Below, piece by piece: positions 4,481-43,716 of a DNA stretch of 64,000 bases. The DNA is from Chamaelirium japonicum (taxonomy: Eukaryota; Streptophyta; Magnoliopsida; Liliales; Melanthiaceae), in NCBI GenBank assembly GCA_947650365.1, contig OX393554.1:33340704-33404703 (forward strand), read 5' to 3'. The position numbers were made by a program, and so were the translations under genes. How positions within the stretch are numbered: position 1 is the first letter of the stretch; the number at the start of each line of letters is the position of its first letter. A model generated the notes under the pieces. That model was not told the origin of the DNA, searched no databases, and saw only the letters and a program-made list of their open reading frames with translations.

Positions 4481-5649
4481 TTACCTTCGTGCACCCACAA
4501 ATTCTCTCCGTATAATCTCCAACATAATCTCATTCCACACATCAACCGGCCCTGGCATACACCAGTGCAGGCAGTCCTCCGGCGCCTTTCCGTTCGTCCC
4601 CCCTCTAATCACCTTGCTCCGGTCAGGGTCCCGATACGGCCCAGGGTGCCCGTCATGCCGGTACCCGAACGCCTCAGTGATGTCCATCATCTTCAACCTC
4701 GAACCATTCCTCGCCTTCTTCGCTGCCTTCTTAAATCCTGCTACTTGCTTCTCATGCATCGCATCGGTATACCCGTTCCTCGCCACCTTGCTCGCCGGCC
4801 GCTCGTTCCCGCCGCACGACCCCCCCTTGTTCCACGCCCCGCCCTCGTAGTGGTCCGGTGTGTACGAGCGGAGTATCGTCAGGCCCGTGTAGTTCGCGTG
4901 GGTAACAATTGAGGTGAGGACCGTCTCGACCGATATACCGAAGGCTTTCGCATTGCTAATTCTGATCCTGTTTCGTTTCTTCAGCTTGGCGAGGCGTCCA
5001 CCGGCGTTCATGCCGTTGAGAACGTAGGCGCTTTGCTTGGAGAACCAGTGACCGGAGGAGAGGACGATGATGTCGAAGCTAGGGAGGAGTTCCATGAAGG
5101 CCTCGTCGGGGGTGTCTAAGTGAATCTTGGTGATCTTTTCCGGCGCGCGGCGATGGATGGGCTCAGAGGTCTTGTGGACGAGCCACGCCGACCATATACG
5201 GACAATGGTGGTGGAGGTGGACGCGAAATACCATCGTTGCATTCGACGATTCCCGCGATTTCGGGGAACTTCCACCTGTCAATGAGCATTATAAATTTGA
5301 GTAAAATATCCGAGTAAATTAAAGGGCTGGAGTACTTGTATCAGATTGGCTTTTACTCCAATTTGAGTAAGGACTGGAATACTTAGGATCAGATTGGGTT
5401 TTTACTCAAATTTTTTACTTAGATTTATGTAAAAATTTGAGTAAGCACTAGAGATGTTCTTACTGTTCCATGCTCTTTTGTGACGGTGCCATCATGGTCA
5501 CCTGATATATTAAAGATCTCCGGAAATCAGACCACATCATGTGGTGCTTTGTTCGATGCGTTGCGAATTCGAAAACTTCCCCATCTCCGCAACAAGGATC
5601 CAAAGGGCTGACTTTACTGTGATACCATATCACCAATAACCCTAGGAGG

Positions 5650-5695
<46 letters not shown>

Positions 5696-8014
5696 GGAGA
5701 CTAGGGTTTTAGGAGAGAATGAATCGTTTCTCATAAGGATATGAGCCCAATGTATATATACAAGAGGATAGGGTATCAATCTCATACACGGTAGCAGGAT
5801 GTATAACCTAATGCATACAAATATCTCTAACAAAGGATATACACAAAGGACTAAGGAGAAGAGGATCCTCATACTTCGTAGCAGTCTCGTAGGTTCTAAG
5901 GTTCAGCTTAAAACAACTACGGTTGTATCCCAGTGGTCAACCCCATTGTTTTCCCTCTTGGGCGGCTGTAGGATCGAATCTTAGGGTTGTCGTACGACAT
6001 GTGGCGTATAAATAAAGTGGTGTAGAGAACACTTGCCTGCCATAGGATGCAGAGCAGGGCCTCCATCTGATTCCGAGCGATTGAATCCCCGACGAAAGCG
6101 ACCATCCTATTCCTCATAAGCTCCAAGAATTTCCCGGCGGAAAACCGGGGAAGGTCGCACCCATGGGGTTTCCATCTCCAGTTCTCGTAGCCCCTATCAG
6201 GTCTCCCATTGCCCTGGCAATTCTGGGACTGTGTTAGGACGGGGCATGTGCTGTTTGTGTAAAGAGGCCCAGCAGGATCATACATCCATTTCCCTTGGAA
6301 CAGATCACAGCTTCCTGGATAATGAACTCAAAAGTGAGGCATTAATGTTTAAAATTCACAGATAATGAGACTTTATTGGTTAATAACACATCGGCAATTG
6401 TCGTAAAATGGAAATATGTCAACAAGAATTATACATAAATTCAAAAGGAATCGTCGGGCATTCACTCCAACATTTTTTTATGCATGGGATGTTGGGGGGA
6501 CACTACATCTGGTGTTTCTTTATTTGTTAAGTTGGGGGTGCTACTAATTTGATGTTTGACTCCTCTCCAATGATGATCGTCTACTCTGTCGGTTGCTGAC
6601 GATTTGGGGAGCGACATGTGGTTATCCGAAAACGAACGGCCACGATCTATAGCCATGGGATGAACCCAAGGGGGGATGCCACTACCCATCACTTGCCGCA
6701 GTCGGTCGGCCACCGTCCCCAACGCCGCCGGCCATCACTGTCGCGCCGGTGACCACCCCTGCTGACGGTGGTGGGTGGCTGATGGTCGATAGGGGTGGTC
6801 ACCAAAGGTAGTGGTGGCTGGCGGTAGGTAGGGGCGGTCGGCGGTACGTGGTCGATGACGGCGATCGATGGGGAAGGTGGCTAGTGGACTGCTGCCAAGC
6901 GTGATGGCATCCTCTCTTGGATTCATCCCATGGCCATAGATCGTGGCCATTGGTTTTCGGATCGCCGTATATCGCTCCTCAAATCGTCAGCGACCGGTAA
7001 TAAAGACGATCATCAGTGGAGCGGAGTAGAACTTGGTAACTTGTGGGGTGTAAATAGCAGTATCCTTTTATAGTCTCCATGGAATACATGGCCCATTGAC
7101 TCCTTTAACCCTCGTACAAACCTTATACGAATGGATTTACATGGTGCACAATTTAAGTCTAGAAACAACTTTGAAAATTAATTTTCTTTAATAATAATAG
7201 TTATCAATAGTAAATAAAGTCCTATGATTTCAAATAAGTGGATGCCCTCGCCCCAAAACATATCTCTTTGATACGTCCCGACACAAATATACCCATGCTT
7301 AAATTATTTTTCAACCAACTTAGAATAATTCTTTGGATAACTTCATCCAACATGGATCATCCACTTCTAATCGATGTGGGACTATCCACTCAACATCCGT
7401 CCGCATGAAGAGCGTGTTTCAACGAAGACTTACCCACAAGAAGGGAGAGACATCAGCGAGGAGAAAGAGGATGCAACGGGGCTACGCGAGGGGATCGAGA
7501 CGGAGTGGGACTTGCTCCAATGCCAAGCCAACTAATTCCGTACCAACTCAAAACCGGTTGTGAGGAGAAGGGTGCAATGGATATACGAAGATACGAATCT
7601 CCCACCCCTAATCGATGTGGGACTATCCGCTCAATAGTTGCGAGCAAGCAAGGAGCGTAAAGAGACAACGGAGAAAGACCACTTACTTGAATCGGCGAAA
7701 GGTGGAGGTGCACTTGTCAATGTGAGGTTCGGAGAGATCTCCCGAGAATCATTAACGAAACCAGAGCGAGAAGATCCATCAATTCCTATGTCTTGTGTCC
7801 CGGACTTAGATTTTCCGGTAAATCCATCTTGGTTGGCCTTTAATGGAGTCTCATGCCACCAAATTCCACTGAGAGACACCAAGTCCCCATGACATGTTGA
7901 ACCAAAGAGATGAGAGACAATGAGGAACAAAGATAGGCATCCCGCCAAGGCGGTGATGAAGGTAGGAGTCCATGGAACTGATAGAACAGCGCGGACGCTC
8001 CTCCGCGAAGCCAT
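4481..8014 (-). CDS. trichome birefringence-like (TBL) protein, putative polysaccharide O-acetyltransferase
   Basis: Three minus-strand exons: 8014-7687, 6314-6037 and 5275-4481, giving 466 residues. Splice phases agree (phase 1, then phase 0). The start at 8014 (MASRRS) gives a short basic tail followed by a hydrophobic segment at about residues 15-35, as expected for a Golgi type II anchor; the in-frame ATG at 8095 would add 27 residues. A variable linker follows. The TBL domain starts near residue 112 (CDLFQGKW), with the GDS motif at 185-187 in FVGDSIARNQ and the DCLHWC motif at 436-441, whose Asp436 and His439 complete the presumed Ser-His-Asp esterase-like site. TBL proteins acetylate wall polysaccharides such as xylan, mannan and pectin. 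The closest remembered resemblance is the Arabidopsis TBL16-18 group, unverified. All key motifs are present and the reading frame is intact. Function and substrate are inferred from family only. Confidence 0.9.
5276..6036 (-). other. TBL intron 2, probable GC-AG intron
   Basis: On the minus strand the exon ends ATGGCAG and the intron begins GCAAGT, matching the strict GC-donor consensus AG|GCAAGT. It ends TTGACAG at 5276. This junction joins LLCILWQ to VEVPRNRGNRRM with no frame change, the order expected in TBL proteins. The nearest GT (two bases further, in GCAAGT) would shift phase and destroy the VEVP sequence. The 761-bp intron holds a GA microsatellite. Confidence 0.8.
5652..5692. repeat. 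(GA)n microsatellite in TBL intron 2
   Basis: About 20 GA units on the plus strand, read as TC in the transcript. Confidence 0.95.
6315..7686 (-). other. TBL intron 1
   Basis: The donor is CAA|GTAAGT at 7686 and the acceptor ATTATCCAG at 6315. The split codon (A + GA) restores the frame. The 1372-bp intron contains the inverted-repeat element at 6480-7070. Near the exon 1 side are two imperfect direct repeats (around 7360-7400 and 7605-7640) sharing CTAATCGATGTGGGACTATCC. Confidence 0.85.
6480..7070. mobile_element. foldback / Mutator-like MITE inside TBL intron 1
   Basis: Arms at about 6565-6685 and 6900-7030 are inverted copies. The shared blocks are ATGATCGTCT, GCTGACGATTTG, GGCCACGATCTAT and CCATGGGATGAA. 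The centre is GC-rich (GGTGGTGGCTGG-like). Long arms with a GC-rich core suggest a Mutator-like non-autonomous element. No target duplication was confirmed. A related core and arm occur at about 8480-8800. Confidence 0.6.
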
Positions 8015-10140: not shown

Positions 10141-10171
10141 TACATGACGGCGAGAGCGAGAGGGAGAGCAC

Positions 10172-10783
10172 TGTGGGTGCAAAAATTGTACCGGACCGGA
10201 TCAGAGCGGCATGGGCCCGCGCAACGGCCCAAGTGAGTAAGCCCACCCGGGTTCATGGGCCCACTCTACGGGGCTCGCAGATCAAGCCCTCCCCCTTATT
10301 GGGCCCGAACAACGGCCCAATAAGGGCCCATCAAGGAGGCCCAGAACCAGTGCCACGTCATCAGCGCCACATCATCACTGCCATATCGGGCACGTGCCTA
10401 CGCTATAAAAGGACCCCCAAGGCATCCAGGAGAGGGGTTGATCATTCGATCAGAGGAAGAGGGATTCCAGCTCCAGAGCAAGTGCAAGAGCTTACTTCTC
10501 TCCTCCTAGTTTCTTTTCTTGTTGCTCCGTGCAACCCCCATTGTAAAAAGCTTCTCTCGGCCTGTCGAGAGAACGCTCAACCCTTTATATTCATATTATA
10601 GTGAAGATCAGGTGGCACCTCTCGCCCGGAGACGTAGGTCGTAAGACCGAACTTCGACAACAACTCCATGTGTCATCTCTCTCCTTCTCAACTTTCTAAT
10701 CTCTAACTCTACAAGCAATCCAATTCAATCAAGGCTGTGGGGTGGGATTCTCGATCAAGGCGGCTCGGAAATTTCCCCCCACA
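10172..10783 (+). repeat. 5' LTR
   Basis: Starts TGTGGGTGCAAAA and ends CCCCCCACA. A TATA box (TATAAAA, 10404-10410) lies within it; the likely transcript start is about 30 bp further on. Confidence 0.95.
10404..10410 (+). promoter_or_regulatory. TATA box of the 5' LTR
   Basis: TATAAAA in CTACGCTATAAAAGGAC, conserved in the 3' LTR (17697-17703) and in the older relative (about 21536). Confidence 0.75.
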
Positions 10784-10788
10784 ATCTT

Positions 10789-10805
10789 TGGCGCCGTCTG
10801 TGGGA
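10789..10805 (+). promoter_or_regulatory. tRNA primer-binding site
   Basis: TGGCGCCGTCTGTGGGA begins 5 bp after the LTR end. It starts with TGG, complementary to a tRNA CCA end. The minus-strand relative has TGGCGCCATCTGTGGGA at the same place. The tRNA isoacceptor was not assigned. Confidence 0.8.
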
Positions 10806-10923
10806 TATCGATAGAGGTCTTACCCACACCTCTACCGACTCCTATTCAACTTATGGTGACGAGCCACAAGTCCTCCTCCAAATCAACCTCAACGCCTTCA
10901 TCACGCCGACATCAACACGCTCA

Positions 10924-12576
10924 ATGGTGAAGGCCAGCACCAACCCTCCAAAGGCGGGTGCTGAACGAACAAACGATATGCTGATCGAAGAAGAACAAGA
11001 AGTCTCAGTTGCAACCAACCGAAGAAATGTTCGGGAACGACTGGGGCCGCAAGGCAGCCTTCCAGAAGGGCACAGCGATCGGCGAGACCCATCATCCCCG
11101 AGGCGTCGGTCCGGCAAAGAACCTGCTATTCAAGGGAACGAGCCTCAGGCTACATATGAGATCTCGGCTGCTGACTTCCAGCTGCTAAATCTCATCAAGA
11201 AGAATGCGGCCCTCGAACAAGAGAGAGACTCCTTGAAGAAAGCAGCTGAGAGGGCGGGGGTTATGATCCTCAACTCTCCCGCTGCGACTGAAGGCCCACT
11301 GAAGACTCACCCAGCTGCGAGTCATCACCTCGAAGAACCAAGGAGGGCTCATGATGAAAAGCGTCAGGCATCCACGCAAGCACCTAAACAAACGGTGTGG
11401 GATCGTCTCAACATCGATGGCGCTCCAAGCCACCGTCGAGAGAAGTCGCCTGAATCAACGGGGTCCACTGGACGCCCCGTTCACTCGCATGCAAGAATGT
11501 CAGATGCACGTGAGCTACTCAACCGACGAAGGCAAACCGCCGATGTGGGACGCCGCCATCAAGATCACAGGCTACTAATCGCCTCAGTGGGGCCTCTTCA
11601 TCCCGAGGTGCTCGCAACCCCTTTCCCTGTGGGTTGGCGAACACCAAGTCTGCCCAAGTTCGACTGCATCAAGGGAGACCCAGCCCTCCACATCCTAGCC
11701 TACAAGCAGGCCCTGACACCATACGAGTATGAGAACCATGTTCTTTGCCGTATGTTTGCGGGAAGCCTCGAAGGGCCTTCCCTCGATTGGTACCACACAT
11801 TGCCCACTGGAGCGGTGGCTACTTTCGAAGAACTGGCAGAACTCTTCATGGATCACTATCGGCTTAACCTGAAGCCAAAAAAGAAGCTGGATACTCTTTA
11901 CCGGCTAAAGATGGGCTCCGATGAATCCTTGAGGAGCTTCACAACCAGGTTTCGCAATGAGCATTCTGAGCTCACTGGCCGTTACCAAAATGAGGAGGCC
12001 ATTATGTTGGCATTCCAGAATGCCATCCGACCGGAACTCCACGTCTATACTGATTTTATCCGACATCCTCCGAGCTCCTTGGAGGCGATGTTCAAACACG
12101 TGCAGCGGGAGATAGAGGTGGAGGACAATCAGCGGGCCAGAAGATTACGCGAGCCCCGCGAGTCTCGTGACTCCCGACATAAGAAAGATGATGAAGCTCC
12201 GAATGAAGCACACTACAAGAAGTCTGCCCATGCTGCGTCCGACCAAAAGGCCCAGGCCAAAAGGTACAATGAAGATCCGAAAGCCCCTCCAGCAAAAAAG
12301 AGGCGAACTCCAAGAGAGCAAAGGGTATTCACTGAGCTGAACACCTCCATTGAAGACATCTTCGCCTACTTGCAGAACGAGCCCTTTTGCAAGTGGCCAC
12401 AGCCTCTCCCTCCAAATTCCGACCAGGCGGGAGATACGATAGCCTACTGTGAGTTTCATCGCAGCTATGGCCACCCAACCTCTACATGTCGGAAGCTAAA
12501 GCATCACATCGAAGACCTGATCCAAGAAGGGCGGCTCGATGGCTACCTCGCTAATAAGGAACCAAGTCGAGAGTAG
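10924..12576 (+). CDS. Gag polyprotein (retrotransposon gag domain, zinc knuckle)
   Basis: 550 residues, uninterrupted. The N-terminal 200 residues are charged and low-complexity, with a possible coiled coil near residues 85-115. The retrotransposon gag domain follows at about residues 240-400; key blocks are LPKFDCIKGDPALH, SLDWYHTLP and SLRSFTTRFRNEH. A basic region comes next, then a CX2HX4HX4C knuckle at about 509-522 (CEFH...GH...C) followed by LKHHIEDLIQEG. The knuckle and tail are typical of plant Ty3/gypsy Gag of the TAT-like lineages, from memory. Gag packages the element RNA into cytoplasmic particles. The frame stops before any protease, and no pol is found downstream. The start at 10924 is the first in-frame Met and lies about 120 bp after the primer-binding site. 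An intact frame in an element without pol suggests Gag itself is retained by selection or that the element is very young. Confidence 0.93.
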   Translation: MVKASTNPPKAGAERTNDMLIEEEQEVSVATNRRNVRERLGPQGSLPEGHSDRRDPSSPRRRSGKEPAIQGNEPQATYEISAADFQLLNLIKKNAALEQERDSLKKAAERAGVMILNSPAATEGPLKTHPAASHHLEEPRRAHDEKRQASTQAPKQTVWDRLNIDGAPSHRREKSPESTGSTGRPVHSHARMSDARELLNRRRQTADVGRRHQDHRLLIASVGPLHPEVLATPFPVGWRTPSLPKFDCIKGDPALHILAYKQALTPYEYENHVLCRMFAGSLEGPSLDWYHTLPTGAVATFEELAELFMDHYRLNLKPKKKLDTLYRLKMGSDESLRSFTTRFRNEHSELTGRYQNEEAIMLAFQNAIRPELHVYTDFIRHPPSSLEAMFKHVQREIEVEDNQRARRLREPRESRDSRHKKDDEAPNEAHYKKSAHAASDQKAQAKRYNEDPKAPPAKKRRTPREQRVFTELNTSIEDIFAYLQNEPFCKWPQPLPPNSDQAGDTIAYCEFHRSYGHPTSTCRKLKHHIEDLIQEGRLDGYLANKEPSRE

Positions 12577-12765
12577 GAGAGGCAGCAGCAGTGGAGAAAA
12601 AAAAAGTCAATGTAATACGTGGATGCATAATCGTAACGTCCGCGGGGCAACCTCTGAAAAAGTGTAACTGCAACTTTGTTATATCAATAAAGTGTCTTTT
12701 TTTTCTCAAAATCAAATCTTTCGAAGTTCGATTCCACCATATTAAGGCATAAAAAAAAAGGCTCC
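12577..12765 (+). other. gag to array spacer
   Basis: Short AT-rich spacer with AATAAAG-like signals near 12686. No coding capacity. Confidence 0.4.
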
Positions 12766-13420
12766 TGGCAAACCAGGTCAACCAAAGACCTTTGATTCCG
12801 CCCGTTCAAGTCGGAAGCTCAAAGGCAATTCGGCTACGCCCTCTCGAGGCTAAAGTCCGACAAAAAGGCTCCTGGCAACCCAGGTCAACCAAAGACCTTC
12901 GATTCCGCCCATTCAAGTTGGAAGCTCGAAGGCAATTCGGCTACGCCCTCTCGAGGCTAAAGTCCGATAAAAAGGCTCCTGGCAACCCAGGTCAACCAAA
13001 GACCTTCGATTCCGCCCGTTCAAGTCGGAAGCTCGAAGGCAATTCGGCTACGCCCTCTCGAGGCTAAAGTCCGATAAAAAGGCTCCTGGCAACCCAGGTC
13101 AATCAAAGACCTTCGATTCCGCCCATTCAAGTCGGAAGCTCGAAGTCAATTCGGCTACGCCCTCTCAAGGCTAAAGTCCGATAAAAGGCTCCTGGCAACC
13201 CAGGTCAACCAAAGACCTTCGATTCCGCCCGTTCAAGTCGGAAGCTCGAAGGCAATTCGGCTACGCCCTCTCGAGGCTAAAGTCCGATAAAAAGCTCCTG
13301 GTAACCCAGGTCAACCAAAGACCTTCGATTCCACCCATTCAAGTCGGAAGCTCGAAGACAATTTGGCTACGCCCTTTCAAGGCGAAAATCAGATAAAAAT
13401 GCTCCTGACAATCCAGGTCA
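12766..13420 (+). repeat. tandem array 1 of the LTR element (about 105-bp unit, 6 copies)
   Basis: The motif AAAGGCTCCTGGCAACCCAG recurs near 12766, 12863, 12970, 13078, 13184 and 13288. Each unit continues TTCGATTCCGCCCGTTCAAG and CGGCTACGCCCTCTC. The same unit family, more diverged, forms the array at 23960-25005. Confidence 0.92.
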
Positions 13421-13489
13421 AGCAAAACTATCAACTATACTTATCCAAGGCGATGAGAATAAGTCCAAGGCAGACGTCGTCGCTTTAAC

Positions 13490-13880
13490 ATGCACCAAGT
13501 TCAAGGAGACATCCTTGGCACTCGAAGACAAAGTCCGAGGCGACCAACGCCTTGGCACTCGACAAGCACAAGGCCCAGCCCTTGGCACGCGAAGACAAAG
13601 TCCGAGGTGACCAATGCCTCGGCACTCTACAAGCCCAAGGCCCAGCCCTTGGCACTTGAAGACAAAGTCCGAAGCGACCAGTGCCTCGGCACTCTACAAG
13701 CCCAAGGCCCAGCCCTTGGCACTCGAAGACAAAGTCCGAGGCGACCAGCGCCTCGGCACTCTACAAGCCCAAGGCCCAGCCCTTGGCACTTGAAGACAAA
13801 GTTCGAGGCGACCAACGCCTTGGCACTCTACAAGCCCAAGGCCCAGCCCTTGGCATTCGAAGACAAAGTCCGAGACGTCG
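13490..13880 (+). repeat. tandem array 2 of the LTR element (67-bp unit, about 6 copies)
   Basis: GAAGACAAAGTCCGAGGCGA recurs at 13524, 13591, 13658, 13725, 13792 and 13859, a constant 67-bp period. The repeat keeps several frames open, so the long apparent ORFs here are repeat artefacts. Confidence 0.95.
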
Positions 13881-14374
13881 TCGTCGACGTATTGGCATTC
13901 GATCAAAAGTCCAAGCTTAGTCTTGTCACTCAGGTCCAAGCATCAGATTGTCACTGGCCATCACCTTTTTTCGACGACTAACGGTTCCAAACCGGTCAGG
14001 GGGTGGTTGGTCTGACTCTGTCAGTGCGTGTCTCCACACTGGTGCAGTCGACGGTGGGTAACACGGGATAAAATGGTGCTTCCTTGATCCTGGCCAAGTC
14101 AACACCCTCACGTGACCGTAGTACCTGGTGAATACAGTAACCAGGTGCGGTAATACATTGGGTGAAGATCGGCTGGCCATCATACGGCGTCATCCTAGAT
14201 TATCTCTAAGAAACCCCCTCGAATATAGCATTGTCCCTCGCCGATATCCCCGCGCACCAGCGTTTTACCGAAAAAGTGTCGGTTTCAAATGGGGCTGAAA
14301 TTCGAAAAACACACTATTTTCAATACCGACACTTTTTGACCTCTTCTAGCAGCCCCAATAATGGGGTGTCGGCA

Positions 14375-14790
14375 TCCACAAGCAGCCCCCCCCCCCTCGG
14401 TTTCGCACAAAAACCGAGTGGGGAAGGGGTGACGGCACCCCGTCAGCAGCACACCCCTCGGTTTCGTCAGAAAACCGAGAGGGGGTGTGTGTCGGCATCA
14501 ACAAGCAACCCTCCTCGGTTTCGCACAAAAATCGAGTAGGAAGGGGGTGACGCACACCATCAGCAGTACATCTCTCGGTTTCGTCAGAAAACCGAGAGGG
14601 GTTTTTGTCAGCAGCACACCCCTCGGTTTCGTCAGAAAACCGAGAGGGGGTGTGTGTTGGCATCAACAAGCAGCCCCCCCCCTCGGTTTCACACAAAAAC
14701 CGAGTGGGGAGGGAGCAATGGCACACCATCAGCAGCACACCCCTCGGTTTCGTCAGAAAACCGAGAGGAGGGGTGCTCGGCGTCATCCAA
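14375..14790 (+). repeat. tandem array 3: hairpin-forming CTCGGTTT units
   Basis: Seven or more units contain CTCGGTTTCG...AAAACCGAG, an inverted repeat with a 6-8 nt loop, separated by G/C runs and CAGCA-rich spacers at about 50-60 bp spacing. Each unit could fold as a short hairpin in RNA. Confidence 0.85.
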
Positions 14791-15059
14791 ACCTATTAGT
14801 CAACCCGATTCAGGTGTCATCCACACACAAGGATCAGCCAAAGACGAAGAGTTATCTTCCATTGGGTTGGTTGAATAGCATCTCCACCAAACCTATTGAG
14901 TTGGCTGTACAAACTTCACAAGCAAAATTCCTCCTTCTTATCTGGGGGTGGACTCGTGGTAACCGCCGCATCATCGCTAGGGCCCGACTGCAGTCCCTAG
15001 TGAATACAGTAACTAGGTGCAGTTGGGTGTCGAACAGAGACGGATGAGTTACCGCGTAT

Positions 15060-15640
15060 CGATGCCTCTTCAAGGCGCGCGTAGGACACTCGGCCAATGC
15101 GTTCTTTAGAGTCATCTCTTCATGAAGGTGATTATCGGAAAAGTTACTCGTCAAGGTGTACGATGTTTCACGTCCACTTTGACCGGTTTTTCGGCGCCTA
15201 CACAATGACACCTTATACACATTCAGCCGACGTGCGTATGAAAAGTTACGGCTGCCGGAAGTTTTCAAGATTCATCTATCTATAAAGGTGAATACCGGAA
15301 AAGTTACTCGTCAAGGCGAACAATGTTTTACGTCCACTTTGACCGGTTTTTCGGCACCTACACAACGACACCTTATACGCATTCATCCGACACGTGTATG
15401 AAAAGTTATGACTGTTAAAAGGTTTCAAGGTCTTTTTCTGCGAAGACATGCATTGGAAATGTTACACGCAAAGGTGCCCGACGCTTTACGTCCACTTTAA
15501 CCAGTTTTTCAGCGCCAACGCAACGGCATATTATACGCATTGATCCGGCTCACGTATGAAAAACTATGACGGTCGAAAGTTTTCGAGTTCATTTTGTTCG
15601 AAGACTAGCATCAGAATAATTACACGGTAACGACGGTTAC
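15060..15640 (+). repeat. tandem array 4 (about 160-bp unit, 3-4 copies)
   Basis: ACGTCCACTTTGACCGGTTT recurs near 15168, 15331 and, altered, 15488. It is accompanied by TATGAAAAGTTA and GAAAAGTTACTCGTCAAGG blocks. Confidence 0.85.
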
Positions 15641-15659
15641 GCTCACGCCCTCAATTTGG

Positions 15660-16130
15660 TGTGTTACGCGCCCAACTCCTAGTAGGCCGAGCGCCGGGTA
15701 TGAAAGAAGAACTCGCACCTCTCCCGGCCCGTGCGTAGGTGCTCTTGGCGACAACCGACCAGAATGGGAATAGGGGGCCGAGTGAACCAAACACCCTCCC
15801 GCACATTCTCCTCATGTAATTCGTCACACGGCGACGATGACGAACCTAACTCGTCCTCCCCTGCCGCGCACTCCGTCTCGCAGCGGACCGAGGCGACCCC
15901 TCCGTGCGTGCTGTCTCACAGCGACCCGAGGCAACCCCGCATGTCCTCTTCGCAGCAGCCCAAGCCAACCCCGAGAGGGTCAGCGAACCACACCCGGGTG
16001 TCCCTCCTCGCATGACAACGGCTTCCATGCGCATCCTCCAGCCACTGCCGTCCGCACCCAGCATCGACCGCCGCTGTTGCTACAGCCGTCCGACCCGTAG
16101 CACAGCACAAGAGAGATGGAAAGAGGAAGG
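15660..16130 (+). other. GC-rich unassigned internal segment
   Basis: It contains overlapping chance frames in several phases and no recognisable domain. It could be captured host sequence, but I see no evidence of exons. Confidence 0.4.
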
Positions 16131-16335
16131 ACCTCGCGCACGGATCTCTCTCGCACCCGCTCTCTCTCGCATGGGTCCTTTCTCTCACCGAGGGCTCTCT
16201 CTCGCACCCACTCTCTCTCGCGAGGACCTTCTCTCTCACCGAAGGCTCTCTCTCGCACCCGCTCTCTCTCGCGAGGACCTTCTCTCTCGCCGAAGGCTCT
16301 CTCTCGCACCCGCTCTCTCTCGCACGGATCGCCAC
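16130..16335 (+). repeat. tandem array 5 (51-bp unit, about 4 copies)
   Basis: CGAAGGCTCTCTCTCGCACC recurs at about 16189 (variant), 16240 and 16291. Each is followed by CGCTCTCTCTCGCGAGGACC. Confidence 0.88.
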
Positions 16336-17034
16336 AGAGAAGGAAAGAGAGAAATAATGGGAAGAGAGAGAGAGAAAGGAAAAAAGAGAGAGAAGTCTGC
16401 TCTCTCACCGAAGACCAGGGAAAAAGAAGAAGAGAAGGGGGGAACACCCACGCCCTTCTCCGACCCGGCCGGGGCCTGTGCCCGAAGCCGTCGACGGCCG
16501 ACCCCTGCCGCCGTGCCCCGCGCCCGGAGTCGCACGTCGACCACCGCTTCCGCACCGCCTCCGTCCGTCGCCGACAGCCGGACCCCGCCAGCGGCTGCGC
16601 TGCGCCAGCCGGCCACCACCGCCGAGCCTGCGCCAGCCCGCCGCTCCGCGCGCCAATCGGCCACCGCCTACGCCCAGCCACCGCTGCAGCACCCACATCG
16701 GTGTCCGATCGCTGCCGCTGTAGCCCGAGCCCACGTGACCCGTGGAGAAGAAGAAGCAGAAAAAGAGAGAGAGAGAGAAAGGAAAGACAGAGAGAGAGAG
16801 GGACGTCCGCTCTCCCATTTGAGTCAAAGCCAAAGAATGGAAAGAGAGAGAGCGGGGTGCAGCCTCACGTGAACAAAAGCAAAAGAAAGAAAGAGACAAA
16901 GAGAGAGAAAGGAAAGAGAGAGTGTGTGACGCCTGCTCTCTCATGCGAGTCAAAGAGGAAAACCAAAGAGGAAAGCTAAAGAAAGGAAAGAGGGAAGCAA
17001 AGAAAGGAAAGAGAGAAAGAGAGAAAAGTTGTTC
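16336..17034 (+). other. GA-rich and GC-rich internal segment
   Basis: GA-rich stretches (16340-16440, 16740-17035) flank a C/G-rich stretch (16450-16735). Long frames exist on both strands because of base composition. No domain is recognised. Confidence 0.4.
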
Positions 17035-17330
17035 TTTCACCAAAAGGGTCTCGGTACCTTCTCGGTATGCTCTCGGTACCCTCTCGGTATGCTCTCGGTA
17101 CCCTCTCGGTATCCACTCGGTCGGAAAACACACTGCTTTTTCGGAAACACACCCTTGCAAAACCGAGACTTTTTGGCTTACACCAAAAGGGTCTCGGTAC
17201 CCTCTCGGTATCCTCTCGGTACCCTCTCGGTATCCTCTCGGTATCCACTCGGTCGGAAAACACACTGCTTTTTCGGAAACGCCCCCTTGCAAAACCGAGA
17301 CTTTTGGCCCGCGCCAAAAGGGTCTCGGCA
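17035..17330 (+). repeat. tandem array 6: nested 12-bp and about 140-bp repeats
   Basis: Short CTCTCGGTAYSC units of about 12 bp are themselves part of two larger copies, about 17040-17180 and 17183-17325. Each larger copy ends CTTGCAAAACCGAGAC and then TTTTGGC. Confidence 0.88.
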
Positions 17331-17451
17331 TCGGCAGAAGGAGATTCTGCTAATGCGAACCGCGGCACCGACAGCCCTTGCCAACCACGCCAGGATCCTA
17401 AGGCGTTTGCACCTCGGAATCCCAGCCGACCCAGGGGGTCCTGACCCGACT

Positions 17452-17460
17452 GGGAGGGGG
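17452..17460 (+). promoter_or_regulatory. polypurine tract
   Basis: GGGAGGGGG, four bases before the 3' LTR. It primes plus-strand DNA synthesis. The same GGGTAAC junction precedes the LTR at 52745. Confidence 0.8.
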
Positions 17461-17464
17461 TAAC

Positions 17465-18076
17465 TGTGGGTGCAAAAATTGTACCGGACCGGATCAGAGC
17501 GGCATGGGCCCGCGCAACGGCCCAAGTGAGTAAGCCCACCCGGGTTCATGGGCCCACTCTACGAGGCTCGCAGATCAAGCCCTCCCCCTTATTGGGCCCG
17601 AACAACGGCCCAATAAGGGCCCAGCAAGGAGGCCCAGAACCAGTGCCACGTCATCAGCGCCACATCATCACTGCCATATCGGGCACGTGCCTACGCTATA
17701 AAAGGACCCCCAAGGCATCCAGGAGAGGGGTTGGTCATTCGATCAGAGGAAGAGGGATTCCAGCTCCAGAGCAAGTGCAAGAGCTTACTTCTCTCCTCCT
17801 AGTTTCTTTTCTTGTTGCTCCGTGCAACCCCCACTGTAAAAAGCTTCTCTCGGCCTGTCGAGAGAACGCTCAACCCTTTATATTCATATTATAGTGAAGA
17901 TCAGGTGGCACCTCTCGCCTGGAGACGTAGGTCGTAAGACCGAACTTCGACAACAACTCCATGTGTCATCTCTCTCCTTCTCAACTTTCTAATCTCTAAC
18001 TCTACAAGCAATCCAATTCAATCAAGGCTGTGGGGTGGGATTCTCGATCAAGGCGGCTCGAAAATTTCCCCCCACA
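17465..18076 (+). repeat. 3' LTR
   Basis: 612 bp, same ends as the 5' LTR. About six substitutions seen by eye (for example ACGGGGC versus ACGAGGC, and TTGATC versus TTGGTC). Confidence 0.95.
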
Positions 18077-18150
18077 AGCACCAATGAGAGGACCTAGAGG
18101 AGTTGAGGACGATAAGTCTTGAAAGGCCGAATAACAGATCACAATCACCG

Positions 18151-21236: not shown

Positions 21237-21240
21237 CCAT

Positions 21241-23959: not shown

Positions 23960-25005
23960 TTCAAGGCACCTAGCAACCTAGGTCAACCTAATACTTTGAT
24001 TCTGGCATTCAAGACAGAAGCTCGAAGCAAAATCGGCTATGCTCTTTCAAGGCTAAAGTCCGATAAAAAGGCTCCTGCCAACCCAGGTCAACCTAAGACT
24101 TCGATTCCTCTGATTCAAGGCGGAAGATCGAAGCAAAATCGGTTACGCCCTTTAAAGGATAAAGTCCGATAAAAAGGCTCCTGGCAACCCAAGTCAACCT
24201 AAGACTTTGACTCCGCCCGTTCAATTCGAAAGCTCGAAGCAAAATTGGTTATGCCCTTTCAAGGCTAAAATTCGATAAAAGGGCTCCTGAAAACCCAATT
24301 CAACCTATGACTTCGATTCCACCCATTCAAGTCGGAAGCTCGAAGCAAAATTGGCTATGCTCTTTCAAGGCTAAAGTCTGATAAAAAAGCTTCTGGAAAC
24401 CCAGGTCAACCTAAGACTTTGATTCTGCTCGTTCAAGTCAGAAGCACGAAGAAAAATCAGCTACGCCCTTTCAAGGCTAAAGTCCTATAAAAAGGATCCT
24501 AGCAACCCAAGTCAACCTAAGACTTCGATTCCGCCCGTTCAAATTGGAAGCTTGATGCAAAATCGGCTACATCCTTTCAAGGCTAAAGTCCAATAAAAAG
24601 GCTCCTAACAATCCAAGTCAACCTAAGACTTCAATTTTGTCCATTCAAGTCAGAAGCTCGAAGCAAAATCGGCTACGCCCTTTTAAGACTAAACTACGAT
24701 AAAAAGGCTCCTGGCAACCTAGGTCAACCTAAGACTTCGATTTTGCCTGTTCAAGTTGGAAAATCGAAGCAAAATTGGCTACACCCTTTCAAGGCTAAAG
24801 CCCGATAAAAATGCTCCTTACAACCTAAGTCAACCTAAGACTTCGATTTCACTCATTTAAGTCAGAAGTTCGAAGCAAAACCAGTTACACTCTTTCATGG
24901 CTAAAGTCCGATAAAAAATCTCCTAGCAACCTAGGTCAACCTAAGACTTTGATTCCACCCATTTAAGTTGGAAGCTTGAAGCAAAATCGGCTATACCATT
25001 TCAAG
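23960..25005 (+). repeat. array of about 105-bp units (about 10 copies)
   Basis: AAAAAGGCTCCTGGCAACCC, AAGACTTCGATTCCGCCC and AAGCAAAATCGGCTACGCCC recur about every 103-106 bp. The units belong to the same family as array 1 at 12766, with higher divergence. The array resumes at 28825-29040 after the inserted LTR element. Confidence 0.9.
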
Positions 25006-25010
25006 GCTAA

Positions 25011-26392
25011 TGATGCAGGCTTGATCAGCATCATCAGATCATCGCTGCATCTTCAGTTCGTCGCCAGAGAGTTTTATTTCAGTCGTTTTTTATTTTATGC
25101 TTGGAGGACATTATCCATATGGAACTTGTACCTGTTTATTTCAGTTTTGGCCCATTCTCTATGATTTTTGCTTAATTTCTGCACTTAGTACTATTTATAT
25201 TCTTGCCCAATTCATAAGGGATGTCCATGATCTCATCCGAGGGCTTTTCGGATTGAATCCGGGTCTTCTCGGGTGAGTTTTCTACATGTTATTAATAAAA
25301 TCTGGGTGTGTGTGTGTTTGCGGGGTACCGACGGACGAGATTATGTCTTGAAACCGACGGTTAGATAGCGAAATAACTCAATTTAGATGACGTGGCAACT
25401 TATGGGCTTTAATTAGGAGTTAAATGGGCTTATCTTAAGCCCAATAGAGCTTCCCTTTGTGATGCCGCCCCCTCTCTCTCCCTTTTCCCGTGAATAAGCC
25501 GCCCGACCCCCCTTGTCCGCGCGGAAAGGCCACCCGGCCTTGTTCCGTCCCTTCTCTTCTCTCTCTTCTTCTCTTTGTTTCTCTCTCTTTTCCTTGCCTT
25601 TCTTAGCCCATTGCATCCACACCATCCACCCTTATTTCCCTTGATCTTAGCCATCCAAAGAAGAACCCTAATGCTACAAAAAGATGAGAAAAGAATGAGA
25701 GTTCAGTTTTGATCATTGCTGAAATTCGTGCCTCTTTGTGAGAGCTTCCGGGAGAGACTCGTGTCCCTGATCCTCGCCGCATCCGCGACTTTGTCTCGTG
25801 AAGGCCTCGGTGTTGTTTTTCCGAAGGTTCCGGCTTCTCCAAACGTCCGGCCTTGCTCCGTGTGCGGGATCATCGGCGCATCCTCGCAATCGACCCACGA
25901 CGGGAAATCCCAGGCAGTATCTATCATTTATGTTATTTTCTCCTCGCATCCGCATCGTTTTTTCTTTGTTTCCATTGCCTCTGCTCCACATCGCAGCCGT
26001 AATCGCCCCGTTTCATCGCTAGTTGAAGCCCTAATATATGCCTACTCATTAGATTTGCTATCTATAGTCTGTCGGTTACCCTTGCAAGCATATTTAGTCT
26101 ATTTTTAGTGAAAAATCTGATGCAAACCTATTGCTAAATCTCAATATCTATTGCTGCGATTGAATCTCTTATTTGCTGAAATTAGTTTTCATGATAATAT
26201 TGCGTCTTTATTGTTAAATCTAAAACCTGCTTTATGTTGATTGCATAGCCTTTTAGTACTGCGTGAGATAATTTATGTTTGCTGTCCTTTTGAGTTATAC
26301 GACGCTATATTGACAACTAAATCTTAGTTATTGACCAAAGAGAAACCTTAAAGGGTTTAAGATTGTAGTGCACCTTATCGGCGCCTGCATCA
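25011..26392 (+). repeat. 5' LTR of the nested element
   Basis: 1382 bp, TG...CA, same length as the 3' LTR. It contains GCCGCCCCCTCTCTCTCCC and a poly-pyrimidine stretch near 25555-25600. Confidence 0.93.
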
Positions 26393-26394
26393 AG

Positions 26395-26406
26395 TTGGTA
26401 TCAGAA
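26395..26406 (+). promoter_or_regulatory. primer-binding site (initiator Met tRNA type)
   Basis: TTGGTATCAGAAC follows the 5' LTR by two bases, close to the common plant TGGTATCAGAGC. Confidence 0.8.
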
Positions 26407-26418
26407 CAATCTGACGCC

Positions 26419-27351
26419 ATGTCCTATCATAGCATCCGATCCCATTATTTGCTTGATCCACTAGATACCCACACCTATAAAGAATTTGTTAAGCTATATA
26501 AATCTTTTGAGCCATGTCCTACCCTTTTCCCGAGATCTCCGATGGAACATAGATACTCCTCTTTGATTCGAGATCGAGCCCATGACCTAGATCTATCTTC
26601 CAAGCCTTTTGTTCAATGGATTTTACGGAGTTCTTCAGTGCCATCGTTGAAAGCCAGCTATATTGAAATCCAGCTCTTACTTGACGATATTGAGGATGAG
26701 TTGGCATGGAGAGAGAAGTAGCACCAGAGGCTTGCCAGATACAGCAGGCCACCACCTCCAGCAGAGCCTCCACCTCCTGTGGAGCACCCGGTTCCACCAG
26801 TGGCAACACTTGAGGAGCATCCACCTCCTGTAGAGCTTCCTCGTCCAATGCCTACGGAGGAGCCACCTCTTCCGTCAGCGACTTCAGAGGAGTTCCTTCC
26901 ACCTTCTCCAGTGCCTACAGAGGTGCCACCTCCTCCTTCAGTGAATCCAGAGGAGTTCCTTCTACCTTCAGCAGTGCCTACAGAGGAGTCCCTTCCTCCG
27001 GTAGTGACTATAGAGAGGCTTCTCCTGTCTTTCACAGAGCTTACTGATGAGACACCTCCTCCTGCAGTTCTTCCTACAACAGAGACACCCGTGGAGCCTT
27101 CGTCTTCCGCGGAGCTTCCATCACAGCTGCAGTCAGAGCTAGTTGGGGAGTTTCAGCCAGTTAAGCCACTTACACACTTTGACTTTGTCGGGACTGACCG
27201 ACCACCTACCGCTCGTGTGCTTCTGTTTATGTACTTCAGTAGCTTCTGGCTCTTGCTCGACGCCAGCACTCTCTTCGCGAGGGGCCCAGAGGTTATTGAC
27301 TGCCCGAGACATCACTTGTTGGGAATTCATCATCAGATCCAAGCACAGTGA
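26419..27351 (+). pseudogene. short Gag-like / proline-rich frame with one in-frame TAG
   Basis: From ATG 26419 the frame gives 100 residues (MSYHSIRSHYLL...). It meets TAG at 26719-26721, then stays open in the same phase to TGA at 27349-27351. The second part is a Pro/Glu repeat domain (PPPVEHPVPP, PTEEPPLPS, PTEVPPPPS) followed by an unrelated tail. I recognise no catalytic domain or zinc knuckle. It probably represents a degraded Gag-like protein of the non-autonomous element; readthrough of the single amber codon is possible but unsupported. Confidence 0.6.
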
Positions 27352-27437
27352 CATTCCCATGGTGGTGGTCTCCCTCCTGCTACCGGCGATGTCTTTTGGC
27401 GTAAACTCGAGGACGAGGTTTTCGCAGTGGAAGCGAT

Positions 27438-28819
27438 TGATGCAGGCTTGATCAGTATCATCAGATCATCGCTGCATCTTTAGTTCGTCGCCAGAGAGTT
27501 TTATTTCAGTCGTTTTTTATTTTATGCTTGGAGGACATTATCTATATGGAACTTGTAGTTGTTTATTTCAGTTTTGGCCCATTCTCTATGTTTTTGGCCT
27601 AATTTCTGCACTTAGTACTATTTATGTTCTTGCCCAATTCATAGGGGATGTCCATGATCTCATCCGGGGGCTTTTCGAATTGAATCCGGGTCTTCTCGGG
27701 TGAGTTTTCTACATGTTATTAATAAAATCTGGGTGTGTGTGTTTGCGGGGTACCGACGGACGAGATTATGTTTCGAAACCGACGGTTAGATAGCGAAATA
27801 ACTCAATTTAGATGACGTGGCAACTTATGGGCTTCAATTAGGAGTTAAATGGGCTTATCTTAAGCCCAATAGAGCTTCCCTTTATGATGCCGCCCCCTCT
27901 CTCTCCCTTTTCCCGTGAACAAGCTGCCCAACCCCCCTTGTCCGCGCGAAAAGGCCACCCGGCCTTGTTCCGTCCCCTCTCTTCTCTCTCTCTTCTTCTC
28001 CTTGTTTCTCTCTCTTTTCCTTGCCTTTCTTAGCCCATTGCATCCACACCATCCACCCTTATTTCCCTTGATCTTAGCCATCCAAAGAAAAACCCTAATG
28101 CTACAAAAAGATGAGAAAAGGATAAGAGTTCAGTTTTGATCATTGCTGAAATTTGTGCCTCTTTGTAAGAGCTTCCAGGAGAGACTCATGTCCCCGATCC
28201 TCGCCGCATCCGCGACTTTGCCTTGTGAAGGCCTCGGTGTTGTTTTTCCAAAGGTTCCGGCTTCTCCCGACGTCCGGTCTTGCTCCGTGTGCGAGATCAT
28301 CGGCGCATCCTCGCAATCGACCCACGGCGGAAAACCCCAGGCAGTATCTATCCTTTATGTTATTTTCTCCTCGCATCCGCATCATTTTTCCTTTATTTCC
28401 ATTGCCTCCGCTCCGCATCGCAGCCGTAATCGCCCCGTTTCATCGCTAGTTGAAGCCCTAACATATGCTTACTCATTAGATTTGCTATCTATAGTCTGTC
28501 GGTTACCCTTGCAAGCATATTTAGCCTATTTTTAGTGAAAAATCTGATGTAAACCTATTGTTAAATCTCAATATCTATTGCTGCGATTGAATCTCTTATT
28601 TGCTGAAATTAGTTTTCGTGATAATATTGCGTCTTTATTGTTAAATCTGAAACCTGCTTTATATTGATTGCATAGCTTTTTAGTACTGCGTGAGATAATT
28701 TATGTTTGCTGTTCTTTTGAGTTATACGACTCTATATTGACAACTAAATCTTAGTTATTGACCAAAGAGAAACCCTAAAGGGTTTAAGATTGTAGTGCAC
28801 CTTATCGGCGCCTGCATCA
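27438..28819 (+). repeat. 3' LTR of the nested element
   Basis: 1382 bp, the same ends as the LTR at 25011, preceded by CTCGAGGACGAGG, a string often seen near the 3' end of plant gypsy elements. Confidence 0.93.
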
Positions 28820-29160
28820 GTTAAAGTCTGATAAAAAGGCTCATGGAAACCCTGGTCAATCTAAGACTTCGATTCCACCCATTCAAGTTGAAAGCTCGAA
28901 GCAAAATCGACTACATCCTTTCAAGGCTAAAGTCTGATAAGAAGGCTCCTGGCAACCCAGGTCAACCTAAGCCTTTGATTTCGTCCGTTCAAAACAGAAG
29001 ATTAAAGAAAAATCGGCTATACCCATTCAAAGCTAAAGTCTGAGGAAAGGGAAAACCCTCTAAAAAGACTCTTAGCAATCCAAGTAAATATAATCTCTTG
29101 ACTACGCTCGTTTGAGGCAGAAACTCAAAGCAGTCTTAACTATGTTGTGACAACTAAGAT

Positions 29161-29365: not shown

Positions 29366-29688
29366 AGTTTTAGGGTTTAGGTTTTAGGGTTTAGGTTTTA
29401 GGGTTTAAGTTTTAGGGTTTAGGTTTTAGGGTTTAGGTTTTAGGGTTAGCTTTAAGGGTTTAGGTTTTAGGGTTTAGGGGTTAGGGTTAGGGTCAGGGCT
29501 AGGGTTTAGGGTTTTAGGGTTTAGGATTTACGGGTTAGGTTTTAGGGTTTAGGGTTAGGGTATAGGTTTTATGGTTTAGGGTTTAGGCTTTAGGGTTAGG
29601 GTTAGGGTTTAGGGGGGTTAGGGGTAGGGTTTAGGGTTTAGGTTTTAGGGTTAGGGTTACGATTTAGGTTTCAGGGTTTAGGGGTTAG
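29366..29688 (+). repeat. interstitial telomere-like repeat
   Basis: About 320 bp of TTTAGGG and close variants (TTTTAGGGTTTAGG, GGGTTAGGG, TTTAGGGTTTAGG). TTTAGGG is the usual plant telomere unit. The array is degenerate, with many one-base insertions, and all units are G-rich on the plus strand. Confidence 0.93.
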
Positions 29689-40544: not shown

Positions 40545-41540
40545 TTCAAACTTACCCAAAATCCAATCATAATCAACATTGAACTTCCCTAATCCAAAAT
40601 ACTACTGAACTTGGACCCCTTCAAACACTCCTACAAAAATTCGACTTCTAATGCGACTAAACAATGACCAGAAAACTGTTTTGGAATTACAAATAAGAAA
40701 CCAAAAACAACTCAAACTAGGGTTTCCATTTTCGCTCATATTGGGTTTCCTCTTTAAGGGATTAGGATTGTTAAATTCCAATCACGTAAGCACTAAACTT
40801 TTTGTTGACTTACAAATATGCCCTGAGGGACTAAAAATAAGAATGAAGTTGAACATTAATGATGCAACTCATCCTATTAGATGCATGCTTGTAAATAACT
40901 TCATTAACTTTGTCTAAGTGACTCCGTCTTTCATCACCCAACCTTAATATGTTTATTGTACATATAGAATAATGTTGCCCATAGTGTTACGTCATAGTAG
41001 AACTCTCTTCAGCCTTTTAGCATGCAAAAATTGCAAGAAACTCCAAAAACACTGCTCACTAATTGTACATGTTGTATATCATGTTATCTCTTCATTTAAT
41101 ATATATTGATATCTTTTAATGTAGTCTCTTTGTGGCATCTCTTCCGGCTTGAGTATAGTGTCATTTTCATTTCACTTGCATTCCTTATACTTCAATTATC
41201 TTTTTCTCTGTATTTGTTATATGTAATTGTTGCTGTATAATCATTATTTGGATCTTTGTGTTCATTTTGGAACTCTCAACATTCAAAGATTCCTTCTATT
41301 TATTTCTTAGTGTAACTTCTAATAATATTTATGTTGTGAAGGTCACAGTTTCTTTGTTCTTTCTCTATGGCTTAGAATGTCTCGTTCGAATGTTTACTTC
41401 TGTAATTTTACATCGCTTGGTATGCCAACTTCTATGATGAACATCTCACTGAACCCTCATTGTGTTGTTTCCTCCATTTACTGAATATGCAAAGTTCCTA
41501 TTTTTGTTAGGTAGCTGAGATGCTGAACCTAGTATCTATT
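40545..41540. other. upstream region of the BED/DUF659 gene
   Basis: AT-rich. A splice-acceptor-like TATCTATTGCAG ends at 41544, four bases before the start codon, so a 5' UTR intron is likely. No clear TATA box was assigned. Confidence 0.4.
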
Positions 41541-41548
41541 GCAGGATA

Positions 41549-43716
41549 ATGGTCAGAGGAAGAGATGCTTGTTGGGAGCACTGTGTCTTGGTTGATGCTA
41601 CAAGGCAGAAAGTTAGGTGCAACTATTGCCAGCGTGAGTTTAGTGGAGGGGTCTATAGGATGAAGTTTCATTTGGCTCAAATCAAGAACAAAGACATAGT
41701 CCCATGTACCGAAGTCCCAGATGATGTAAGAGATCTTATTCATAGCTTATTAAATACACCCAGAAAACAGAAAACTACTAAGAAGCCAAAGATAGACCGG
41801 GCACAAAATGATCCACAAAATAGTTCCTCCGCCAGTGGTGGTTTTCATGCCAATAATGTGGGATCTAGCGGACAAAATGGCAGCACGTGCCCATCCTTGT
41901 TAGTGCCGCGCCCTTCACCAAGTGCCCAGCCAGCGATGGATGATGCTCAAAGGCAAAAGCATGACGAGGCCGATAAAAAAATTGCCCTCTTTTTCTTTCA
42001 TAACTCTATCCCCTCCAGTGCCTCTAGATCTACCTATTATCAGGCAATGATTGATGCGGTAGCAGAATGTGGGTCTGGCTATAAAGCTCCGACATATGAG
42101 GCTTTAAGATCAACTCTGTTGGAAAAGGTGAAGGGGGAAATACATGACGGTTACAAGAAACAAAGACATGAATGGAAAGAAACAGGTTGCACAATATTGT
42201 CAGACAGTTGGTCAGATGGCCGATCAAGATCGATTCTAGTCTTTTCAGTTGTTTCACCAAAGGGTGCACTATTCCTAAAATCAGTCGATGTATCAGCTCA
42301 TGTAGATGATGCGTATTACCTGTTTGAGTTGCTTGATTCGGTTATCAAGGAGGTTGGTGTAGAAAATGTCGTGCAGGTTATAACTGATAGTGCAACCAGT
42401 TATGCTTGTGCAGGAGGGCTTCTCCTAAAGAAGTATCCTTCATTATTTTGGTCTCCATGTGCTTCATATTGTGTTGAGAAGATGTTGGAGGATATCAGTA
42501 AGCAGGAATGGGTGAGTACGGTCTTGGAGGAGGCAACGACCATTGCACGATTTATATATGGTAACGAGTGGATATTGAATATGATGAGAAAATTTACCGG
42601 GGGATGCGAATTGATTCGGCCGAAACTCACTAGATTTGTTACCCATTTTCTTTCCCTGAGGTCGATTGTGATTCAAGAAGATAATTTGAAGCACATGTTT
42701 GCACATGCTGATTGGATGTCATCCGTATACAGCCGAAGGCCTGATGCGCAAGCGATTAAGTCATTGCTATATTTAGAAAGATTTTGGAAATCAGCAAATG
42801 AGGCCGTCAACGTGTCGGACCCGCTCGTCAAACTACTAAGGGTGGTTGATGGCGACATGCCTGCAATGGGATACATATACGAGGGTATAGAAAGGGCAAA
42901 ACTGGCGATCAAGGTATTTTATAAAGGGTGTGAAGAGAAGTATATGCCGATTTTGGAAATAATCGAGAGGAGATGGAGTACGCAACTTATTTCTCACCTA
43001 CATGCGGCTGCGGCTTTCCTTAATCCTTCAATCTTCTACAACCCGAATTTCAAGTTTGATGCCAATATGAGAAATGGCTTTCATGCAGCCATGTGGAAAA
43101 TGTTTCCAGAAGAGAAAGATAAGATCGAACTTACCAAGGAGCAGCCGTTATATTTAAATTCGCAAGGCGCTCTAGGAAGTGAGTTTGCTATCATGGGGAG
43201 GGCATTGAATTCTCCCGGTATGTGCAAAAAAGATTATTTGGTTGAAACTATCTAGACTCTGAACTCACCTATCTAATGAGTTTCTATGAGTTAGATTTTG
43301 TGGAATCCTATATCCAATCTAACCTTTCGTTCTCTCGCATGTTACCAGGTGACTGGTGGGCGGCATATGGTTATGAAGTTCCTGTGCTGCAGAGGGTTGC
43401 GTTGCGGATACTAAGCCAACCGTGCAGTTCGTACTGGTACAAGTGGAATTGGAGCACTTTCGAGAGCGTGCACGCCAAGAAACGCAACAAGATGGAAATG
43501 AAAAAGCTGAGTGATTTGGTTTTCGTGCACTGTAATCTCCGATTACGAGCCATTTGTCAAAATAGGGACGGAAAATGTAAACCCATTGTATATGATGAGA
43601 TAGATGTGAGTTCCGAGTGGCCTACGGAGTCCGAATCTTCGTCCCTTCTGTTGGACGACTCGTGGTTAGATAGTCTGCCCTTTGAATGCAGGGGTAGCCC
43701 TTCAACTTATGAATGA
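41549..43716 (+). CDS. BED zinc finger / DUF659 / hAT-dimerisation domain protein
   Basis: Two exons, 41549-43217 and 43349-43716, joined in phase 1 (CCCG|GTATGT, then CCAG|GTGACTGG), giving 678 residues. Domains: a BED-type finger at about 24-53 (Cys24, Cys27, His41, Cys53), a low-complexity linker, DUF659 at about 150-300 (TGCTILSDSWSD, VVQVITDSATSY), the rest of an RNase-H-like transposase fold, and a hAT C-terminal dimerisation block across the splice junction (GDWWAAYGYEVPVLQRVA, SSYWYKWNWSTFE, FVHCNLRL). The frame is intact. No TIR or 8-bp duplication was seen beside it. Intact single-gene proteins of this architecture are common in plants and usually considered domesticated hAT transposases acting as nuclear DNA-binding proteins. 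Whether the catalytic acidic triad is complete cannot be judged here. The role in the plant is unknown. Confidence 0.92.

Follow-up and report, generated by a model that had tools for sequence, protein, structure and literature searches.

A Gag-only, Retand-related LTR retrotransposon with six tandem arrays and a mosaic gag gene in Chamaelirium japonicum

We analysed a 64,000-nucleotide stretch of the Chamaelirium japonicum genome (contig OX393554.1, positions 33,340,704 to 33,404,703; here called the window), which harbours a long terminal repeat (LTR) retrotransposon with gag but no pol, here named element A. Comparison of its two 612-bp LTRs, which are flanked by an AGCAC target-site duplication (TSD), reveals six differences, five of them transitions and one a transversion, and a divergence K of 0.0099. 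At a rate of 1.3e-8 substitutions per site per year this corresponds to an age of ~0.4 million years. The gag gene is intact and, judged by Gag, the element is of the Ty3/gypsy type. An array-rich stretch of ~4.9 kb extends from gag to the 3' LTR (Table 1). The duplication, the LTRs with their six differences and an intact 550-residue Gag had been proposed in a first-pass annotation, made from the sequence of the same DNA, and are confirmed by our LTR comparison and by the Retrotrans_gag match. Rfam and tRNA scans of the window gave no match.

Tandem Repeats Finder (TRF) confirms the six arrays described by the same annotation, while some unit sizes had to be corrected: from about 105 to 107 bp in array 1, from about 55 to ~60 bp in array 3, which TRF resolves into two stretches, and from 12/140 bp to units of 11/22 bp within 132 bp in array 6. 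In a self-comparison no match of more than 60 bases at E<=1e-5 was found between different arrays of A.

Table 1. Features of element A, with positions counted from the first letter of the window.
Feature	Position	Strand	Description
Element A, whole	10172-18076	+	7905 bp
5' LTR	10172-10783	+	612 bp, TGTGGGTG...CCCCACA; 97-99% matches elsewhere in the same genome
3' LTR	17465-18076	+	612 bp
Target-site duplication AGCAC	10167-10171 and 18077-18081	+	both flanks of A
Primer-binding site	10787-10806	+	19 of 20 bases as in the pol-bearing Retand element R
Polypurine tract GGGAGGGGG plus TAAC	17452-17464	+	GGAGGGGGTAAC common to A and R
gag	10924-12576	+	intact, 550 codons; Retrotrans_gag PF03732, E=3.7e-8
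gag mosaic block, type I in A	10924-12123	+	right edge near codon 400, left edge copy-dependent
Array 1	12755-13426	+	107-bp unit x6.3; present in relative B too
Array 2	13513-13874	+	67-bp unit x5.4, hairpin CCGAGGCG/CGCCTCGG; related to arrays of relative C
Array 3	14393-14773	+	seven hairpins of two kinds, alternating
Array 4	15108-15626	+	~160-bp unit x3; shorter in most other copies
Array 5	16145-16325	+	51-bp pyrimidine-rich unit x3.5; not found in 5 of 10 copies
Array 6	17034-17328	+	132-bp unit x2 holding 11/22-bp units, 11-bp TCTCGGTACCC

To describe what follows gag we used a Pfam scan and the proteins of R, a Retand element with pol from the same genome, whose 812-bp LTRs are 99.1% alike. 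The stop-free frames of R comprise gag-protease, reverse transcriptase (RT), RNase H plus integrase, and an antisense frame of 690 residues for TRP28. In element A the 47 stop-free frames of at least 60 residues between 12577 and 17462, shorter ones not being taken in, show no match to any retroelement family at E<=1, and the E values of 0.037-0.25 that did occur belong to nine unrelated families. In a protein search of the window R's Gag did match, while its protease, RT, RNase H/integrase and TRP28-frame proteins gave no match at E<=0.01. The absence of pol behind gag, claimed before, thus holds in both searches. With two LTRs and a TSD, an intact Gag, and neither protease, RT, RNase H nor integrase, element A has the make-up of a TR-GAG element, and the movement without Pol that belongs to this type appears to have taken place in the past, as suggested by dispersed copies of the same layout, their TSDs and near-identical LTRs. 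LARD elements have a large internal region without coding capacity, and the intact 550-residue Gag of A does not agree with this. Of the earlier assignment to a TR-GAG or LARD type with borrowed pol, the young gag-only TR-GAG kind therefore stands, while LARD in the strict sense does not.

A search of the 1.5-Gb genome with the LTR, as suggested by the first-pass annotation, yielded 3749 first-look candidates. Scoring of the best 40 gave 42 match rows, one of them a fragment and the other 41 almost complete, with identities of 97-100%. Twenty stretches were fetched, around the first 15 rows other than A's own except for one taken from the remaining rows, and these contain 11 further elements with internal sequence (12 counting A). 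Both LTRs and a common order of parts are found in nine of the 12, A included. Several of them have smaller versions of arrays 4 and 5 or none, but none of these nine lacks the arrays altogether. Their LTR divergence K ranges from 0.0099 to 0.0268. Five of the nine are flanked by an exact 5-bp TSD, one by a TSD with one mismatch, and three have none, two of which abut another copy. Comparison of R's proteins with the recognised parts of the copies found no pol. In copy L014, whose 3' LTR is outside the fetched stretch, an integrase-like match of 26% identity lies on the other strand, ~3.9 kb past the last recognised part. The search thus reveals a high-copy young family.

The arrays were counted in 10 copies, one of which (L022) breaks off short of the 3' end. 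Array 1 comprises 6-11 units and array 2 comprises 3-15, whereas array 3, present in all 10 copies, has 3-14 hairpins. For array 4 a single recognisable unit was counted in eight of the 10, where the alignments still span 166-359 bp. Array 5 was not found in five, among them the shortened L022 and L028, which retains a 37-bp piece. In the nine copies whose 3' end is included, the core of array 6 comprises 2-3 units. When the units of 11 copies are compared, 65 of 74 units of array 1 are closest to a unit of another copy (9 ties), and of the 86 units of array 2, 61 are closest to one in another copy, 20 are ties and 5 are closest within their own copy. As the units are mostly closest to those of other copies, the arrays predate the copies and were inherited as blocks.

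The Gag of A is 45.6% identical to that of R over 522 aligned positions. The LTRs of both elements also begin with TGTGGGTGCAAA and end with CCCCCACA, their primer sites differ at one of 20 bases, and the stretch before the 3' LTR is identical. Beyond these common ends the LTR of R has no match to that of A at E<=0.01, which makes the agreement conspicuous. RT, RNase H and integrase act on the LTR ends, the primer site and the polypurine tract, and because these sites agree, a Pol of the Retand lineage could serve A. The full partner that had been envisaged, with the same LTR and primer site plus pol, is thus matched by R in its pol, the LTR ends and almost the whole primer site, while its LTR is otherwise dissimilar. 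TRP28 is described as a mark of Retand elements (PMC11963269), and a TRP28 search of the C. japonicum genome gave 137 matches among 150 scored candidates; a tandem array of ~118 bp lies beside the TRP28 frame in 14 of 15 loci cut out. R is one of these TRP28-bearing elements. Upstream of its 3' LTR, A shows no TRP28 (PF04195) frame in antisense, either in the frame scan or in the search with R's protein, and we therefore call A Retand-related rather than a Retand member. What it does have in common with the lineage is Gag and the cis signals, each compared with one Retand element, and an array-rich region before the 3' LTR.

Within the family, gag is a mosaic. Ten copies (all but L009) are 94-99% like A in bins across LTR, leader and gag end, whereas gag at element bases 953-1952 is only 68-85% like A; L020 breaks off inside gag and was left out of the comparison beyond that point. 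L009 is 96-99% like A throughout. In 75-nt steps, four copies show 64-91% identity in most steps between ~900 and 1950; at 1951 the identity is back at 92-100%. Over codons 201-400, the synonymous divergence (dS) of A from the type II copies L010, L019 and L028 amounts to 0.91-1.02 at a nonsynonymous divergence (dN) of 0.062-0.076, while dS is 0.06-0.11 over codons 401-550. Since noncoding flanks cannot be so much more conserved by descent, the gag core has been exchanged by recombination: two main core classes with dS near 1 reside inside backbones that are otherwise 94-99% alike. Other left breakpoints are seen in L017, L014, L020 and L022. The divergence values indicate that codons 201-400 have been under long purifying selection. 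In Arabidopsis, recombination within the Onsen family during bursts has been described (PMC5668417).

The type I gag core occurs at at least 40 places of the genome at >=96% identity. When the stretch from the LTR to array 1 was used as a query, 31 of the best 40 places (A included) continue into array 1; in the remaining nine the LTR and gag match and the similarity then ends just after gag, eight of them at query base 2419-2420, 14-15 bases past the gag stop, and one at 2459. All nine are among the best 40 places for the type I core. This pattern makes them the foremost candidates for a sister element that combines this LTR with pol. A comparison of the 137 TRP28 places by eye placed none near these nine.

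The window contains two relatives of A. Relative B, the older one with an LTR start at 21240, has gag parts in different frames and extends to 29051; its LTR and gag DNA are ~76% like those of A, and no 3' LTR of B was found in the window. A 106-bp array, the same as array 1, lies at 23963-25010 and 28822-29051 of B. Between the two parts is a small nested LTR element (25011-28819) with LTRs of 1382 bp that are 95.5% alike, flanks GCTAA/GTTAA and a proline-rich frame of 209 residues with no Pfam match. A degenerate TTTAGGG telomere-type array of ~320 bp (29369-29688), chromosome-internal, adjoins the end of B. Relative C, a minus-strand element, extends from 50559 to about 46114 and has an LTR of ~628 bp and a primer site similar to that of A; its gag remnants are 34-50% identical to the Gag of A. 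Its arrays have units of about 199, 94 and 78 bp, and two of the three carry the hairpin motif of array 2. The 78-bp type has 247 first-look candidates in the genome, and among those listed outside C itself identity is 67-86%. As gag followed by arrays is seen in B and C too, this layout is old. At 52747-52931 fragments like the start of C's LTR are found within a 42-bp tandem repeat, where LTR sequence itself seems to have turned into an array.

The first-pass annotation had credited several arrays with hairpin potential and had proposed roles in RNA packaging, dimerisation or length maintenance. Scored as z against dinucleotide shuffles, folding of the sense strand is strong for array 3 (-9.3) and array 2 (-4.8), followed by array 1 (-2.8) and array 6 (-2.5), while arrays 4 (-1.3) and 5 (-0.7) do not fold unusually and three gag stretches score -0.9 to -1.2. 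Values of -2.7 to -4.0 are also obtained for the LTR and two spacers, and the arrays fold nearly as well in antisense as in sense orientation. In array 3 and in the 94- and 78-bp arrays of C, perfect inverted repeats surpass every one of 60 shuffles; they are borderline (reached by 2 of 60 shuffles) in array 2, gag and the LTR, and absent from arrays 1, 4 and 5. The array 2 hairpins are found again in C, a distant relative, where the arms have changed and are still complementary: 45 unique arm pairs from array 2 and C hold 22 double-changed cells versus 6.3 in shuffles (1 of 2000 reaches this). When 12 C-type loci are added, however, the 222 unique arm pairs together hold 35 double changes versus 36.2 expected, although a subset of 24 unique pairs whose loop starts with A retains an excess (11 versus 4.4, reached by 3 of 1000). 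Inside the family, where 86 of 115 units of array 2 were counted (32 unique arm pairs) and 29 dropped for an unmatched right flank, double changes number 6 versus 5.2 expected, and the arms are more variable (0.136-0.144) than the flanks (0.064-0.093). A looser family arm search (644 hits, 301 unique) was set aside for its excess of mismatches; it gave no signal (112 versus 107.7). The arms of array 3 pair slightly above shuffles (601 versus 595.5, reached by 27 of 1000), with a weak excess of double changes (7 versus 4.0, reached by 83 of 1000). Strand-specific G-U wobbles were considered as a sign of selection on RNA and rejected, as the excess of G-U over A-C goes along with an excess of C-to-T changes in bases that are not paired. 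In array 2 of 11 copies, unpaired sense-strand bases show 59 C-to-T and 22 G-to-A changes; base composition may account for part of the C-to-T excess.

Taken together, A is a young copy of a high-copy LTR family without pol, and probably a Retand-related element of the TR-GAG type that has been moved in trans. It encodes its own Gag and retains the cis signals, namely LTR ends, primer site and polypurine tract; its RNA would be packaged with this Gag, and reverse transcription and integration would be carried out by the Pol of a Retand-type element. The arrays would represent the repeat-prone stretch that Retand elements bear before the 3' LTR, passed on as blocks while the unit number drifts, with no demonstrated function. 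Several points weigh against this reading. Gag is open over its 550 codons in only four of the 12 elements, and recent copies show a high ratio of dN to dS (0.024 to 0.016 between A and L009, 0.035 to 0.096 between L019 and L028); pol-bearing donors, and not gag-only elements, may be where Gag was under purifying selection. The mobility of A is read from its sequence, R is a candidate helper, and the same-LTR partner is a candidate too. The strong folding of array 3 and its hairpins in every copy counted also leave room for a function of this array.

That pol was deleted after insertion from an autonomous element, in this single copy, is extremely improbable: it would account for the absence of pol and nothing further, and it is refuted by nine two-LTR copies in different places that all pass from gag into array 1, as do 31 of the best 40 places. 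A different source of Pol has about an even chance. Here A and a pol-bearing sister would share their LTR and form a pair comparable to Zeon (Gag) and Cinful (Pol) of maize, in which the sister supplies the enzymes and its gag core is taken up by recombination. The nine places that share LTR and gag only, all of them in the list for the type I core, would fit such a sister, although another possibility is that they are gag-only elements whose 3' half differs. We consider it unlikely that arrays 2 and 3 are RNA elements for Gag packaging or dimerisation, selected through competition for the borrowed Pol. Their folding relative to gag, the compensated arms shared with C, and the constant presence and slight excess pairing of array 3 would fit this idea. 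The signal in array 2 is lost as a whole, however, with the additional C-type loci, the double changes of array 3 are in weak excess, and antisense strand, spacers and LTR fold well too. Because covariation is absent within the family and the arms of array 2 vary more than their flanks, conserved RNA structure in the arrays and a packaging role are not supported; nor do unit numbers that vary widely, and arrays 4 and 5 that are not constant, agree with the earlier proposal that included length maintenance. A combination of these ideas is quite doubtful, according to which the gag-only family would repeatedly swap its capsid core for the one of a pol-bearing same-LTR partner by template switching and keep its own array-bearing 3' half, so that capsid compatibility is renewed, with the hairpin arrays as a packaging or dimerisation handle.

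The window has further features. A cytochrome P450 gene lies in two pieces at 54595-61018, and the ~4.6 kb between them contain a 1.6-kb AT-rich array of the CTCTCTATAATATTTT type (57026-58655). Frames of a hAT-type transposase (BED zinc finger, DUF659, hAT dimerisation) form two adjoining pieces at 41519-43713, and pieces of a PMR5N/PC-esterase gene, which we take to be trichome-birefringence-like, are found on the minus strand at 4484-6285.

As a kind of element A is ordinary, and its recombination history is what makes it interesting: the mosaic core is a natural record of a part of Gag exchanged during shared replication. The family would be one more Gag-only element found alongside Retand donors of pol, and in a literature checked mostly at listing level we found no published account of a gag-only element that is Retand-related and carries several arrays. 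Surveys seeded with RT overlook pol-less families, and A's family has 3749 first-look LTR candidates, the best 40 of which were scored.

We compared A with known systems. The Arabidopsis element AT5TE33540, a TR-GAG with a GAG of 562 residues, is reported to transpose in ddm1 (PMC8704663). Like A it has two LTRs, a single Gag frame of similar length and movement without a Pol of its own; it belongs to ATCOPIA63, however, whereas A is Ty3/gypsy-type and Retand-related with ~4.9 kb of array-rich DNA past gag. Retand elements have been described as a lineage with arrays located between pol and the 3' LTR (PMC11963269). They resemble A in the array-rich region before the 3' LTR, in a homologous Gag and, for R, in nearly the same cis signals, and differ in having RT and TRP28. 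The survey is reported to give at most three arrays per cluster with units of 8-100 bp, against six with units of 11-160 bp in A; as the survey is described as RT-seeded, pol-less elements would be invisible to it. Soybean Gmr9/GmOgre also carries several unrelated minisatellites of polymorphic number between the coding region and the 3' LTR (PMC3305785). According to the same paper it is Ogre-type, longer than 21 kb and equipped with gag-pol, and its five minisatellites are interleaved, unlike the separate blocks of A. A parallel in arrangement is offered by maize, where, according to PMC8547701, PMC2774510 and PMC11963269, Gag-coding Zeon and Pol-coding Cinful present, as A does, a high-copy young Gag-only family beside pol-bearing relatives of the Retand lineage, Cinful being among the Retand query elements of PMC11963269. 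The likeness is one of description, and while Zeon has its Cinful, the same-LTR pol partner of A is a candidate.

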